This document shows, in pieces, positions 29,905 through 64,000 of a DNA stretch of 64,000 bases. How positions within the stretch are numbered: the first letter of the stretch is position 1; each line of letters opens with the position of its first letter. A model generated the notes under the pieces. It saw nothing but the letters and a program-made list of their open reading frames with translations. It was not told where the DNA came from and ran no database searches. The stretch covers positions 318,501-382,500 of the forward strand of contig NZ_KK211189.1 in assembly GCF_000620845.1 (NCBI RefSeq), given 5' to 3'. The position numbers and the translations under genes are program-made. The stretch comes from Exiguobacterium marinum DSM 16307 (GTDB lineage: Bacteria; Bacillota; Bacilli; Exiguobacteriales; Exiguobacteriaceae).

Positions 29905-30023
29905 TAAAAAATGAGCACCTCTCACTAGAGGTGCTCTCGAAAGTCTACCGCGACGGACCACGCTCCACAACGTGCTCCTCAAGGGAATGTCCGCCGTCTT
30001 ACATAGACCAGCTCATCGCATGT
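29905..30023 (-). ncRNA. Predicted small RNA of about 119 nt, divergent from htpG
   Basis: No protein fits this strand, but a complete transcription unit is visible: a promoter at 30029-30057 and a strong terminator (GAGCACCTCT with AGAGGTGCTC, then T residues, 29906-29936). The predicted RNA can fold: GUCUA (30008-30004) pairs with UAGAC (29947-29943), enclosing GGCGGAC (29995-29989) with GUCCGUC (29958-29952) and a small CACG/CGUG stem. I could not match it to 6S, SRP, RNase P or tmRNA. No gene lies downstream before the TetR hairpin, so it is not a leader. Function is unknown; a trans-acting regulator or an antisense of the htpG upstream region are possibilities. Confidence 0.6.
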
Positions 30024-61147: not shown

Positions 61148-61344
61148 TCACGAAACAGTTTCTTTTGATACAGTTTCGAGAACTTCCGATAATCGGTCAC
61201 CTACCACGAAGCCATCCGGCAGTTCATACTTCTTCACGATTTCTGACACTAAATCGCCTTTATCCAACGTTTCGATTTGTTGAATGCTATATGTTTCTGT
61301 AATCCAACGATCCATTCCATATCAAAAATGACTACGTGTTTCAT
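61148..61344 (-). pseudogene. Remnant of a HAD-superfamily hydrolase gene
   Basis: An ATG at 61344 with AAGGG upstream begins MKHVVIFDMEW, a good HAD motif I region (VIFDxD). The frame then breaks; the neighbouring frame from 61315 to 61148 reads DRWITETYSIQQIETLDKG, then YELPDGFVVGDRLSEVLE, which matches the HAD motif IV region (VGDxxxD). The central ~130 residues of a normal HAD phosphatase, including motifs II and III, are missing. So an intact gene suffered a large internal deletion with a frame change. The rest of the 61084-61446 gap shows nothing else. Confidence 0.6.
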
Positions 61345-61420: not shown

Positions 61421-61452
61421 GAAAAATAAAAAGCCTGACTCCCTCGTCAGGC
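61421..61452 (-). terminator. Terminator of the FusB-like gene
   Basis: GCCTGAC and GTCAGGC pair around six bases; on the minus strand TTTTTATTTTT follows. The stop codon is inside the stem. Confidence 0.85.
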
Positions 61453-62097
61453 CTGTAACGCTTTATGAACAAAAGTATGCAAAGCCTCTTGGCTCGTGAT
61501 ATGTTCGTTGCACGTCTTACTGTCTACACATATGTATGTGCCGATGGCTTTGTAATAGTCCGGATTTTTCGCTTGTTTCGCTTTCGTGATCGTAACGCAG
61601 TACGTCACGTCCGTGAACTGATTACAGAAGGCACATATGTTTTTCTTCGTATTCGTGCTCGGTTTACATACGATGCCAATCAATCGACCTTCATGTTGAC
61701 AAATCATCAACTTTTGCTTGGAACGTCCATCGTTCCAACTCAAATAAGTGAGTCGTCCAAAATCAACATCGGCTAGCTCCGGTAAGCGAAGCTTCTTCTG
61801 TTTCGGGAACAAATCCTTCAGCTGCTCGGCAGATACGACGGGAAATGGTTGAACCCATTCTTGTAATTGTTGCATGTACTCTTCGAACGCTTCGTTCGTC
61901 TGTAACGTCGAGAACTGTAAAAGCTTCAATTGTTCAGTCGTTGCCTCAGGGAATGCATAAATCACTTTCGACTGTGCCAAGTCGATGACTGCCCGCAAAA
62001 CAGAAGGCGGCAAGCTTTGCATTCGACTCTCTTTGACGAGCCTCACTTGTTCTTTGATGAGATTATATTGTTCGTTTTGAATAAATGGATCTGACAT
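61447..62097 (-). CDS. FusB/FusC family EF-G-binding protein
   Basis: A 216-residue protein with the FusB layout: an N-terminal helical part (FIQNEQYNLIKEQVRLVKESR) and a C-terminal treble-clef zinc domain with ICAFCNQFTDVTYC and YICVDSKTCNEHI. FusB-type proteins bind elongation factor G on the ribosome and can rescue it from fusidic acid; many chromosomal members probably have a housekeeping role. ATG at 62097 follows AAGGGGG by eight bases. It is separated from the upstream CD3324-type gene by a strong terminator, so it has its own promoter. Confidence 0.9.
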   Translation of the reverse strand: MSDPFIQNEQYNLIKEQVRLVKESRMQSLPPSVLRAVIDLAQSKVIYAFPEATTEQLKLLQFSTLQTNEAFEEYMQQLQEWVQPFPVVSAEQLKDLFPKQKKLRLPELADVDFGRLTYLSWNDGRSKQKLMICQHEGRLIGIVCKPSTNTKKNICAFCNQFTDVTYCVTITKAKQAKNPDYYKAIGTYICVDSKTCNEHITSQEALHTFVHKALQA

Positions 62098-62183
62098 CTT
62101 GTCGCCCCCTTCCTCAATCCTCAGTTTACAGGAGACGACGCTTCCTTACTGTGTACACTTTGATTAAGAAACATAGTCGACCT

Positions 62184-62214
62184 AAAAAGGTACGACTAGC
62201 GAACTAGTCGTACC
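62184..62214 (-). terminator. Terminator of the CD3324-type gene
   Basis: GGTACGACTAG and CTAGTCGTACC form a perfect 11-base stem around CGAA; on the minus strand TTTTTAGG follows. Confidence 0.88.
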
Positions 62215-62218
62215 TCCT

Positions 62219-62488
62219 TCATGTCGAGCAGTATACAATCTTTCGAATCGTGTGCGTCGCCAAATGATAGGATATGGCCAGACTTTCGATTCGCTCTCCG
62301 TTCCGAAACGCTGCGCGTATGGCTTCGTTTCGTTTCTCAAGTAATTGTTTCCCTCCGTTGACCGTTCCCCACTTCCGTTTCGTGTCGGTCGGGGTCGGCA
62401 CATATAACGTTTCACCTTGTACGTATTGTTGCACCTCTTGCAACAATCGTTCTGGCAGAATGTGTTGCGCATTGACGTACTTCATCAT
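62219..62488 (-). CDS. CD3324 family small helix-turn-helix protein
   Basis: An 89-residue protein. The start MKYVNAQHILPERLLQEVQQYVQGE and the end LAISYHLATHTIRKIV match the CD3324 family, which appears to carry a helix-turn-helix at the C-terminus; its function is not established. Two ATGs (62488 and 62485) follow AAGGAG with spacings of six and nine bases. The ribosome site can be covered by a leader hairpin, and a 36-codon leader ORF lies upstream, so translation may be controlled. Confidence 0.82.
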   Translation of the reverse strand: MMKYVNAQHILPERLLQEVQQYVQGETLYVPTPTDTKRKWGTVNGGKQLLEKRNEAIRAAFRNGERIESLAISYHLATHTIRKIVYCST

Positions 62489-62690
62489 ACCTCGCTCCTT
62501 ATTGAATGAATCCAATTCGATAAGGGAGCAAAGCCAAGTGGGTTACGTTAAATCAAGCGATCAAGGTATTCGTTTCGCCCCATGCAAGTGATCGCCTTTC
62601 GTCCAAATGGCTTTGCATGAGTGCGTGAAGACCTAGAAAATCGAAGCCGATTTTCCACGGGTATGCGCCTCCTTTGCGATGTGTCGTTCC
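62489..62690 (-). other. Structured leader RNA with competing helices upstream of the CD3324-type gene
   Basis: The leader has several long complementary pairs on the minus strand. CAUGCAA (62619-62613) pairs with UUGCAUG (62587-62581). GCGAUCA (62595-62589) pairs with UGAUCGC (62563-62557), so these two are interleaved as in a pseudoknot. GCAAAGCCA (62616-62608 complement) can instead pair downstream with UGGCUUUGC (62536-62528), competing with the first helix. GCUCCCUUAU (62529-62520) can pair with AUAAGGAGC (62502-62494), which covers the CD3324 ribosome site. A further perfect hairpin GAAAAUCG/CGAUUUUC lies at 62636-62655. This is the layout of a translational attenuator or riboswitch; no known class was recognised. 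Confidence 0.5.
62548..62658 (-). CDS. 36-codon leader ORF upstream of the CD3324-type gene
   Basis: A GTG at 62658 has AAAGGAGG nine bases upstream and opens a frame of 36 residues, beginning MENRLRFSRSSRTHAKPFGR and ending NEYLDRLI. The peptide is strongly basic in its first half. It begins about 30 bases after a good promoter and spans the competing helices of the leader, so translation of it would change the folding of the RNA. It may be a regulatory leader peptide or a small functional protein; no homologue is recognised. Confidence 0.5.
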   Translation of the reverse strand: MENRLRFSRSSRTHAKPFGRKAITCMGRNEYLDRLI

Positions 62691-62694
62691 TTCA

Positions 62695-62721
62695 ATTATA
62701 CCGAATTCAATGAATCGGCAA
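62695..62721 (-). promoter_or_regulatory. Promoter of the leader ORF/CD3324-type transcript
   Basis: On the minus strand a perfect TATAAT (62700-62695) follows TTGCCG (62721-62716) after 15 bases, or TTTGCC after 17. It lies just beyond the end of the GH3 gene. Confidence 0.6.
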
Positions 62722-62730
62722 AAGGGCGGC

Positions 62731-64000
62731 TCAGCCGTTCTTCATACTGAATTCATCTGCGAGCGTGAAGGACACGTCCTTCACTTCTAATCCGTTCAAC
62801 GCGAAATAAAGCTGGAGATAATTATGCTGATTCAAGAAGAAGATCTGCTTCGTCTGCGTCACCCATTCTCCGTCCGTCCCGTTAAACGTGAACGTTGCAC
62901 CCGGGATATTGTTCGCAAACAACGTCACCGGCATCTGTGCCAATTCTCCCGCATTCGAACGGGCAGTCAACGTGATGTCATACGTTCCGGTCTGGTCGAC
63001 CGAGATAGCGAAGACGTGTGTGTTTCCGGTCGAGGTATCGATTCCTGACAAATCAACGTGTTCCCCGTTTTCGAGATGTTGATAGTCCAACTCAAATGCA
63101 TCCTGTTGATTCGTTTCGTCTTCAAAGCCGAGCACCTCGACCGAACCATCATGAATCCCAAGCAGACGCTCCATCGCCGGTGATTTCAAGATGAATGAAC
63201 AAATGTTGTGCGCACTCCGCAACAACTCGCCTCGTGTCACCACACCTTCTTCGAGCGATACCATCGTATTGTCCTCGAATGAGTTGAGGTCTGGACGGTC
63301 AACGACCATGTACAAGTCGTTTTGCGAGCGAACCATCGCTGCCGTGTTTTTACGGTTGGCCGACTCATCCTCACGGAAGTTCACTTTTGCCCACCAGTCC
63401 GTCATGACAATCCCTTCAAAGCCCCACTCGTCACGTAAGATACGCGTGTTTTGGTCATACAGTCCAGCCGTCCAGATTCCGTTGACCGCACCATAAGTCG
63501 TCATGATTGACGTTGCACGTCCTTCTTTCACCGCCATCTCGAATCCTTTCAAATAAATCTCACGTAACGCCCGCTCCGAGACGACCGAATCGATATCGTG
63601 ACGATGTGCCTCTTGGTTGTTGGCGCTGAAGTGCTTGAGTGTGCCCGTCACGCCGACTCGATGCATGCCGTTTAATTGAGCGACCGCCATCTTTCCAGTC
63701 ACATGCGGATCTTCTGAGAAATACTCGAAGTTCCGTCCATTCAACGGATTGCGGTGAATGTTCATCCCTGGTCCGAGCAGCGTATCGACGCGATTTTTCC
63801 GCATCTCGAGTCCTGTCATCTCAAACAAGTCTTCGACGAGGTCGACGTTGAACGTGGACGCCAACAATGTCCCGTTCGGAAGCGCGAACGCCTTCGTCCC
63901 GATATCCATGCGAATCCCTGATGGACCATCGGCACAACAGGCCGCTGGAATCCCGAGCTCGTTCAATCGGTCGGACACCCCACCAAACGCAGCTGCCGTT
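62731..64000 (-). CDS. GH3 family glycosidase (beta-glucosidase type), 5' part beyond window
   Basis: At least 422 residues of a glycoside hydrolase family 3 enzyme; the frame stays open to the right edge. The catalytic barrel shows LGIPAACCADGPSGIR, LGPGMNIHRNPLNGRNFEYFSEDP, GTLKHFSANNQEAHRH (Lys-His substrate contact) and the nucleophile Asp in GIVMTDWWAKVNF. After the barrel comes a beta-rich domain (about residues 320-420) like a carbohydrate-binding module, but no alpha/beta-sandwich domain before the stop. That domain would have to precede the barrel, outside the window, as in GH3 enzymes with reversed domain order. It probably splits beta-glucan oligomers together with the GH16 enzyme. 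Confidence 0.9.
   Translation of the reverse strand, partial: TAAAFGGVSDRLNELGIPAACCADGPSGIRMDIGTKAFALPNGTLLASTFNVDLVEDLFEMTGLEMRKNRVDTLLGPGMNIHRNPLNGRNFEYFSEDPHVTGKMAVAQLNGMHRVGVTGTLKHFSANNQEAHRHDIDSVVSERALREIYLKGFEMAVKEGRATSIMTTYGAVNGIWTAGLYDQNTRILRDEWGFEGIVMTDWWAKVNFREDESANRKNTAAMVRSQNDLYMVVDRPDLNSFEDNTMVSLEEGVVTRGELLRSAHNICSFILKSPAMERLLGIHDGSVEVLGFEDETNQQDAFELDYQHLENGEHVDLSGIDTSTGNTHVFAISVDQTGTYDITLTARSNAGELAQMPVTLFANNIPGATFTFNGTDGEWVTQTKQIFFLNQHNYLQLYFALNGLEVKDVSFTLADEFSMKNG

Follow-up and report, generated by a model that had tools for sequence, protein, structure and literature searches.

A probable ribosome-sensing translational attenuator upstream of CD3324-family and FusB-type genes in Bacilli

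The window analysed here is a stretch of 64,000 nt from Exiguobacterium marinum DSM 16307 (contig NZ_KK211189.1, positions 318,501 to 382,500). On its minus strand, a leader of ~200 nt (about 62690–62489) lies between a GH3-type gene (end at 62731) and a CD3324-family gene (start at 62488). In our best reading, this leader is probably a ribosome-sensing translational attenuator of an EF-G translation-rescue module. It shows three features of attenuators controlled by an upstream ORF (uORF): a uORF with a Shine–Dalgarno sequence (SD), mutually exclusive helices touching the uORF and a hidden downstream SD. Functionally, the best evidence comes from its link to the FusB module. The leader is a widespread covarying RNA without a match in Rfam 15, and its family is wider than can be seen from the window alone. 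It is new as a variant among uORF-controlled attenuators.

Layout and covariation of the leader

All leader features are on the minus strand. A perfect −10 box (TATAAT) was read from the sequence at 62695–62700. The first-pass annotation had called the promoter good; this holds for the −10 box, but a consensus scan of 62050–62800 found no good −35 box and no 9-of-12 consensus match. The SD of the uORF (AAAGGAGG, from the sequence) is located at 62668–62675. The uORF, identified by the ORF list and leader comparison, occupies 62548–62658 (36 codons, GTG start, peptide MENRLRFSRSSRTHAKPFGRKAITCMGRNEYLDRLI), and its GTG lies exactly 41 nt 5' of a TGCAAAG core.

The segment S1 (CUCAUGCAAAGCC, 62609–62621) provides the 5' strand for helix A as well as for helix B. 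In helix A, 62621–62613 pairs with 62587–62579, the paired part of S2 (UUGCAUGGGG, 62578–62587), and 9/9 pairs are formed. In helix B, 62616–62608 pairs with S3 (UGGCUUUGC, 62528–62536; 9/9 pairs). Helix C connects its 5' strand at 62595–62589 with its 3' strand at 62563–62557 (7/7 pairs). Helix D connects an anti-SD strand at 62525–62520 with 62502–62497 (6/6 pairs). Most of the CD3324 SD (AAGGAG, 62495–62500) lies within this helix, and helix strand and SD together span 62495–62502. The strands of A, B and C are based on covariation and a base-by-base pair check, the 5' strand of D additionally on folding, and its 3' strand with the SD on sequence, folding and covariation. All 31 pairs over the four helices are standard pairs. 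As S1 is common to A and B, these two helices are mutually exclusive. With respect to A, helix C is interleaved; with respect to B, it is nested.

The leader with a small ORF, interleaved helices and a hidden ribosome site that the first-pass annotation had described was found at its place on the minus strand. This includes the four complementary pairs, the segment with a choice of two partners (S1 with S2 or S3) and the last helix over the downstream ribosome site. The minus-strand fold, which had been suggested as a check, was more stable than 200 of 200 shuffles (z-score of −3.48).

Homologous leaders were compared in two alignments, A5 with 97 distinct rows and A6 with 91 rows (Exiguobacterium left out; one row is known to be false). 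In A5, 98.2% of the cells were paired for the structure A+C+D and 98.3% for B+C+D. Eight pairs were changed on both sides in each structure, which was reached by 0/500 shuffles; the pair-type count was reached by 6/500 (A+C+D) and 1/500 (B+C+D) shuffles, and all these shuffle controls ignore the relatedness of the rows. In A6, 13/24 pairs (A+C+D) and 14/21 pairs (B+C+D) had both-side changes, with 0/500 shuffles on all five measures under the same kind of control. Helix D was paired in 96.2% of the cells. The alignment was fitted to helices B, C and D, and these consequently lean to the model; helix A was absent from that model. Covarying pairs, which the first-pass annotation had advised looking for, were present in both alternative structures, and each helix had both-side changes in homologues.

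Column 17 shows the three-way constraint on S1, S2 and S3. In the 10 rows with G as the S1 base, the S3 partner is C in 8 and U in 2, and a G–U pair with S2 is retained in all 10. Divergent copies (L130, L148, L153, L144 and L156) have other letters in S1, S2 and S3 with the complementarity kept. With the model R2, which was built from A6 and contains no Exiguobacterium row, the window copy scored 79.7 bits (E 1.1e-18). By eye, S2 could also pair with the 5' strand of D (AUGGGG with CCUUAU); we discarded this pairing since it is missing from some copies, for example L029 and L018.

No match to the 4227 families of Rfam 15 was found in 62180–62780 at E up to 10. Thirteen homologous loci, searched with an E limit of 1, gave one match, which was far below the gathering score and outside the leader. 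The only Rfam match of the window at the gathering score was the BsrF sRNA at 29913–30019 (−; 60.3 bits).

The uORF and the alternative pairing of S1

We gathered 130 distinct leaders by pattern. An SD-preceded ORF ran into S1 in 129 of them, and in 98 the distance from an ATG, GTG or TTG to the TGCAAAG core was exactly 41 nt. Both counts speak against a ligand-binding riboswitch, which the first-pass annotation had named as its second option and in which the A+C pseudoknot would be the aptamer and the uORF incidental. The long, strongly conserved segments and the interleaved helices are indeed aptamer-like. However, one segment with two required partners accounts for much of the conservation, divergent copies swap all three segments for other complementary letters, and there is no Rfam match. 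The ligand sense of the claim was unsupported, and we consider a riboswitch unlikely.

The frame tally at S1 was 105, 15 and 9 (first start taken; a few overlapping alternatives included). HAKP was read at S1 in most frames, some copies read MQS, and many uORFs ended shortly past S2. The set included 13 copies that lie directly before a FusB-type gene. Ten of these stopped at the end of S1 (CKA, CRA, RKA or RRA, then stop), and the remaining ones stopped 3–4 nt further. As to the peptide, whose conservation was another suggested check, sequences and S1 frames differed among copies, and no single stall motif in one frame was found by eye. The varied frames and stops over S1 suggest that S1 is kept as RNA. 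The uORF, in turn, seems to be kept for translation across S1 and not for one peptide. Synonymous changes in the uORF were 0.374 versus 0.268 expected, and the wrong-frame control was also raised (0.344 versus 0.256). In view of an open frame at a few loci, coupling to the downstream gene by frameshift or read-through was also considered as a possibility.

The recurrence of HAKP after small residues in many copies would fit a uORF that senses an amino acid or codon, as with a specific stall peptide. The HAKP letters are, however, the letters of S1 itself. Moreover, the frame across S1 varies among copies, with CKA or RKA before the stop in most FusB-direct copies and MQS in others, and a run of a single codon was not seen. 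Codon sensing is highly improbable.

Helix states were scored by the best pair probability per helix, with pseudoknots left out of the calculation. Helix A exceeded 0.5 in 128/130 transcripts ending 12 nt past S2. In full leaders, helix B exceeded 0.5 in 110/130 and helix A in 20/130, and masking of S2 raised helix B to 125/130. The median energies were −15.8 kcal/mol for A (80 leaders), −26.4 kcal/mol for B (80 leaders) and −6.6 kcal/mol for D (81 leaders). As A forms early and B is usually final, a ribosome running over S1 could convert A to B.

The downstream SD was ~80% paired with or without a footprint on S1 (mean unpaired fraction over 130 leaders: 0.179 without and 0.185 with masking). 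That simple masking of S1 frees the SD was not borne out in the nearest-neighbour secondary-structure calculation, in which helix D stays closed, and no helix competing directly with the SD hairpin was found. Release of the SD must hence come from something that this calculation leaves out. Folding alone leaves the SD closed, and it is on this account that we infer the polarity of the switch, i.e. on when ribosomes are stalled.

Helix B could also be read as part of an intrinsic terminator, with the U-rich stretch as its tail, which would make the leader a transcription attenuator. In many copies, ACCUUAUUUUU follows B. Yet at least seven T in the 10 nt after S3 were found in 0/130 leaders (mean 5.1, most 6), and the U-rich stretch instead pairs with the SD in 96.2% of the cells. 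The consensus scan of 62050–62800 found no terminator. For want of a T-rich tail in all 130 leaders, helix B was rejected as a terminator, and we give transcription attenuation very little credence.

For the translational attenuator, we propose the following course of events. By calculation, helix A forms once S2 is transcribed; together with C it gives an H-type pseudoknot arrangement. Once S3 is out, helix B is usually the calculated ground state, with C nested. Freely moving ribosomes on the uORF would strip S1 from S2, and S1 would then settle on S3. B would stack on D (the stacking is assumed), the SD would be shut and the gene off. When elongation or recycling is blocked, a ribosome short of S1 would leave the A+C pseudoknot as a trap; alternatively, the ribosome would sit on S1. 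With B missing, S3 would be free and D alone, and the downstream gene would be translated. The SD may be released by the lost stacking of B on D or by an exposed landing site around S3. The protein made would be either the FusB-type EF-G rescue factor itself or, in the case of the window, CD3324. The latter would probably then activate the neighbouring fusB-like gene from a box before it.

In its most specific form, this proposal is tentative. The leader would be a kinetic switch reading ribosome movement, with an A+C trap that is sprung only by a ribosome crossing S1. Moving ribosomes would mean off and halted or missing ribosomes on, with any drug or peptide. The switch would drive an EF-G rescue factor or a dedicated transcription activator passing the signal on to genes for rescue or detoxification.

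Distribution of the leader and the genes downstream

In a set of 61 genomes that included the window's own, the CD3324 protein had matches in 8. The same leader was seen in five other members of the genus and at loci of two other families (L007, L009). A named relative is Exiguobacterium profundum (L040), with a 96% identical CD3324 protein. CD3324 genes without such a leader, as judged by eye or by model, were found at L008, L024, L025, L028, L030 and L032. A search by protein alone gave 579 confirmed places, and the best 80 of these were used as named loci (Bacillus-like bacteria, Paenibacillus and related genera). S2, S3 and D were present in 80/80 of them and S1 in 79/80. Rather than lacking the ORF and compensatory changes, 79 of these best 80 had all parts, and their helices covary. 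At L087 (Neobacillus pocheonensis), S1 and the uORF are lost, C, S2, S3 and D are kept, and there is promoter-like sequence instead.

The covariance model R1 matched 99/100 sources, with the divergent L026 as the single miss, and 76/76 of the sources drawn from the 80 named loci. In 299 genomes of the class Bacilli, R1 gave 83 matches in 71 genomes. One of them (G234) was false, so the true count was 70 genomes; the CD3324 family was above the cut-off in 63 of the 299. R2 matched 13 of 398 genomes of the phylum, one of them falsely (G675). Both G234 (L223) and G675 (L222) were rejected as terminator-like false positives. Two genomes outside the class had true copies (L214, L221), both before CD3324. 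G556 gave a partial match (27.5 bits).

Three Paenibacillus plasmids carry the leader, and CD3324 is next in both plasmids that were opened. On one plasmid (L217, Paenibacillus polymyxa pPpO211), the leader, CD3324 and an annotated alpha/beta hydrolase occur together. One query leader found no match in phage records. On contig 4 of G247, the leader and CD3324 gene are duplicated in tandem, 765 nt apart (L149/L150). Among 14 members of the genus in the 299-genome sample, the leader, CD3324 and FusB were all present in 4, and none of the three in 10. The pattern looks like gain and loss of the module as a whole. The reading as a probable translational attenuator before a small regulator is supported by the conserved uORF position, the alternative pairing and the SD-hiding helix, which recur in homologues from many families.

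The CD3324-family gene of the window (62219–62488, −; we take yraL to be the Bacillus subtilis name) was assigned by profile match and encodes a Mor-like predicted DNA-binding protein. It reached 106.1 bits against NF040785 (cut-off 65), and the match to the Mor family PF08765 was below the gathering score (22.2 versus 24.9 bits). The structure model had a mean pLDDT of 81 and a pTM of 0.48, with three helices at the end. Its best fold match, a weak one, was the phage Mu activator C (E 0.12).

The presumed target of CD3324 is a FusB-type EF-G-binding protein gene at 61447–62097 (−), assigned by Pfam match. The domains EF-G-binding_N and FBP_C scored 48.6 (cut-off 27.1) and 50.9 bits (cut-off 27.2). 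The cut-offs of the named FusB/C/D/F resistance proteins in NCBIfam were not reached (best: fusD, 83.7 versus 450 bits). By eye, two short overlapping ORFs at 61148–61344 (−) resemble the remains of a single disrupted gene. FusB-type proteins act on EF-G. The SD release and the on-when-stalled direction proposed above would fit this action as well as the attenuation proposed for staphylococcal FusB.

The FusB family was found in 115/299 Bacilli genomes. Of the 83 matches of R1, 30 lay directly before FusB and 34 at a distance of 120–900 nt before FusB. Apart from the 30 FusB-direct matches and G234, there were 52 matches, and a CD3324 match started within 60 nt in 51 of these, 34 with FusB next and 17 without FusB; G094 had only a CD3324-like start downstream. 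Of 20 inspected matches without an adjoining CD3324 match, 19 lay directly before a FusB-type gene, and one (G094) had the CD3324-like start. Conversely, 64/115 FusB genes had the leader and 51/115 had no match. Twenty of these 51 loci were read; several, namely L201, L202, L205 and L207, had other leaders with a uORF and hairpins, and at others none was visible. L201 has the uORF and hairpins without the S1/S2/S3/C architecture. By eye, small ORFs and hairpins were often upstream of leaderless FusB-type genes (L201, L202, L203, L205, L207, L208), and L207 seemingly has a classic chain of alternative pairings reaching the SD.

In 66 of the 80 named loci (best 80 of 579), FusB was just 3' of CD3324. 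By reading, the other 14 had alpha/beta hydrolases (12), a DinB-like gene (L105) and a peptidase-like gene (L049). Every NCBIfam match of two neighbour hydrolases was below the cut-off. The L053 hydrolase matched esterase families including chloramphenicol hydrolase, far below the cut-off.

A terminator-like hairpin with T5 follows the CD3324 gene at 62184–62214 (−; read from the sequence, unreported by the consensus scan), and a hairpin with T4 was found between CD3324 and fusB in 49/66 intergenic regions. Between CD3324 and the next gene, at 62142–62184 (−), the window has a degenerate copy of a candidate DNA box. For the weight matrix of this box, one half of the FusB loci served as the training set (31 of its 33 loci entered), and the 99th percentile of shuffles was the threshold. 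The box was found in 33/33 held-out FusB loci (scores 1.8 to 60.4) and in 13/14 CD3324 loci with other neighbours (weak in L055, absent in L105), and training and test loci are related. The window copy scored 18.7, a value reached by none of 500 shuffles; this score is not independent, as the training half contained two Exiguobacterium loci, one of them nearly identical here. Of the regions 5' of the CD3324 leader, 1/80 had the box. It was found in 0/19 loci with the leader directly before FusB. As the box occurs after CD3324 and is absent at FusB-direct leaders, CD3324 is probably an activator of the neighbouring fusB-like gene, acting via the candidate box before that gene. A repressor of its neighbour is a possible alternative.

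Two unrelated proteins of one neighbourhood share the same leader, which would suit an autoregulatory leader whose pseudoknot is bound by a repressor of translation (CD3324, FusB, EF-G or a ribosomal protein). Such a leader would leave the uORF unexplained, however, and 30 leaders stand before FusB without CD3324 in between. Furthermore, CD3324 looks DNA-binding in its weak matches, and its conserved box is a DNA element ahead of the next gene. We regard protein binding as quite unlikely.

Significance and relation to known systems

Among the literature matches listed (titles and abstract beginnings), none described this leader. Searches of the accessible full texts found no paper naming the CD3324 family protein, none on yraL/yraK of Bacillus subtilis, and none on a Bacillus EF-G-binding protein or on attenuation in a Bacillus fusB leader. 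If our reading is true, the leader is a common induction switch for many chromosomal FusB-type genes (64/115 in the sampled genomes), and the suggested function of the CD3324 family is that of an activator of a translation-rescue gene. Since the reading frame over S1 is not the same in all copies, the switch may respond to translation stress in general rather than to a single drug, which would bear on target-protection resistance. The leader is a structured RNA, and its three competing segments are directly testable.

The translational attenuators of ermC and cat have a uORF, mutually exclusive helices and a hidden SD, and the present leader has these in common with them. Unlike in ermC and cat, the late segments S2 and S3 compete here for the early S1 inside the uORF. 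The present leader also differs in its pseudoknot arrangement, in having no common arrest peptide and in that no helix was found competing directly with the SD hairpin.

The part of PMC6310831 that was accessible mentions ermC and describes the Listeria hflXr leader rli80, in which a small ORF and alternative structures control a ribosome-recycling resistance protein. The small-ORF leader with alternative structures is like the present one. Unlike here, rli80 acts by transcription termination with an RLR peptide (PMC6310831, same part); no terminator was found in the present leader, and RLR occurs in some uORF peptides of the 130 leaders, by chance or otherwise, and is not common to them. An RNA survey of 26 genomes, in its accessible part, reports uORF motifs with conserved structure, including uORFC-6-1 with an RLR motif (PMC8632094). 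By description, these resemble the present leader in combining conserved structure with a uORF. They are set apart by description as well, the survey's main text containing neither 'elongation factor G' nor Paenibacillus nor Exiguobacterium (PMC8632094).

The staphylococcal fusB leader is described in PMC12190993, of which a part was accessible. Its fold hides the SD, and induction by fusidic-acid-stalled ribosomes, i.e. translational attenuation, was proposed. Unlike here, that part of the description contains no CD3324 relay. By the same description, the two have in common a FusB-type gene downstream, a leader fold that hides the SD and a proposed induction by stalled ribosomes (PMC12190993).
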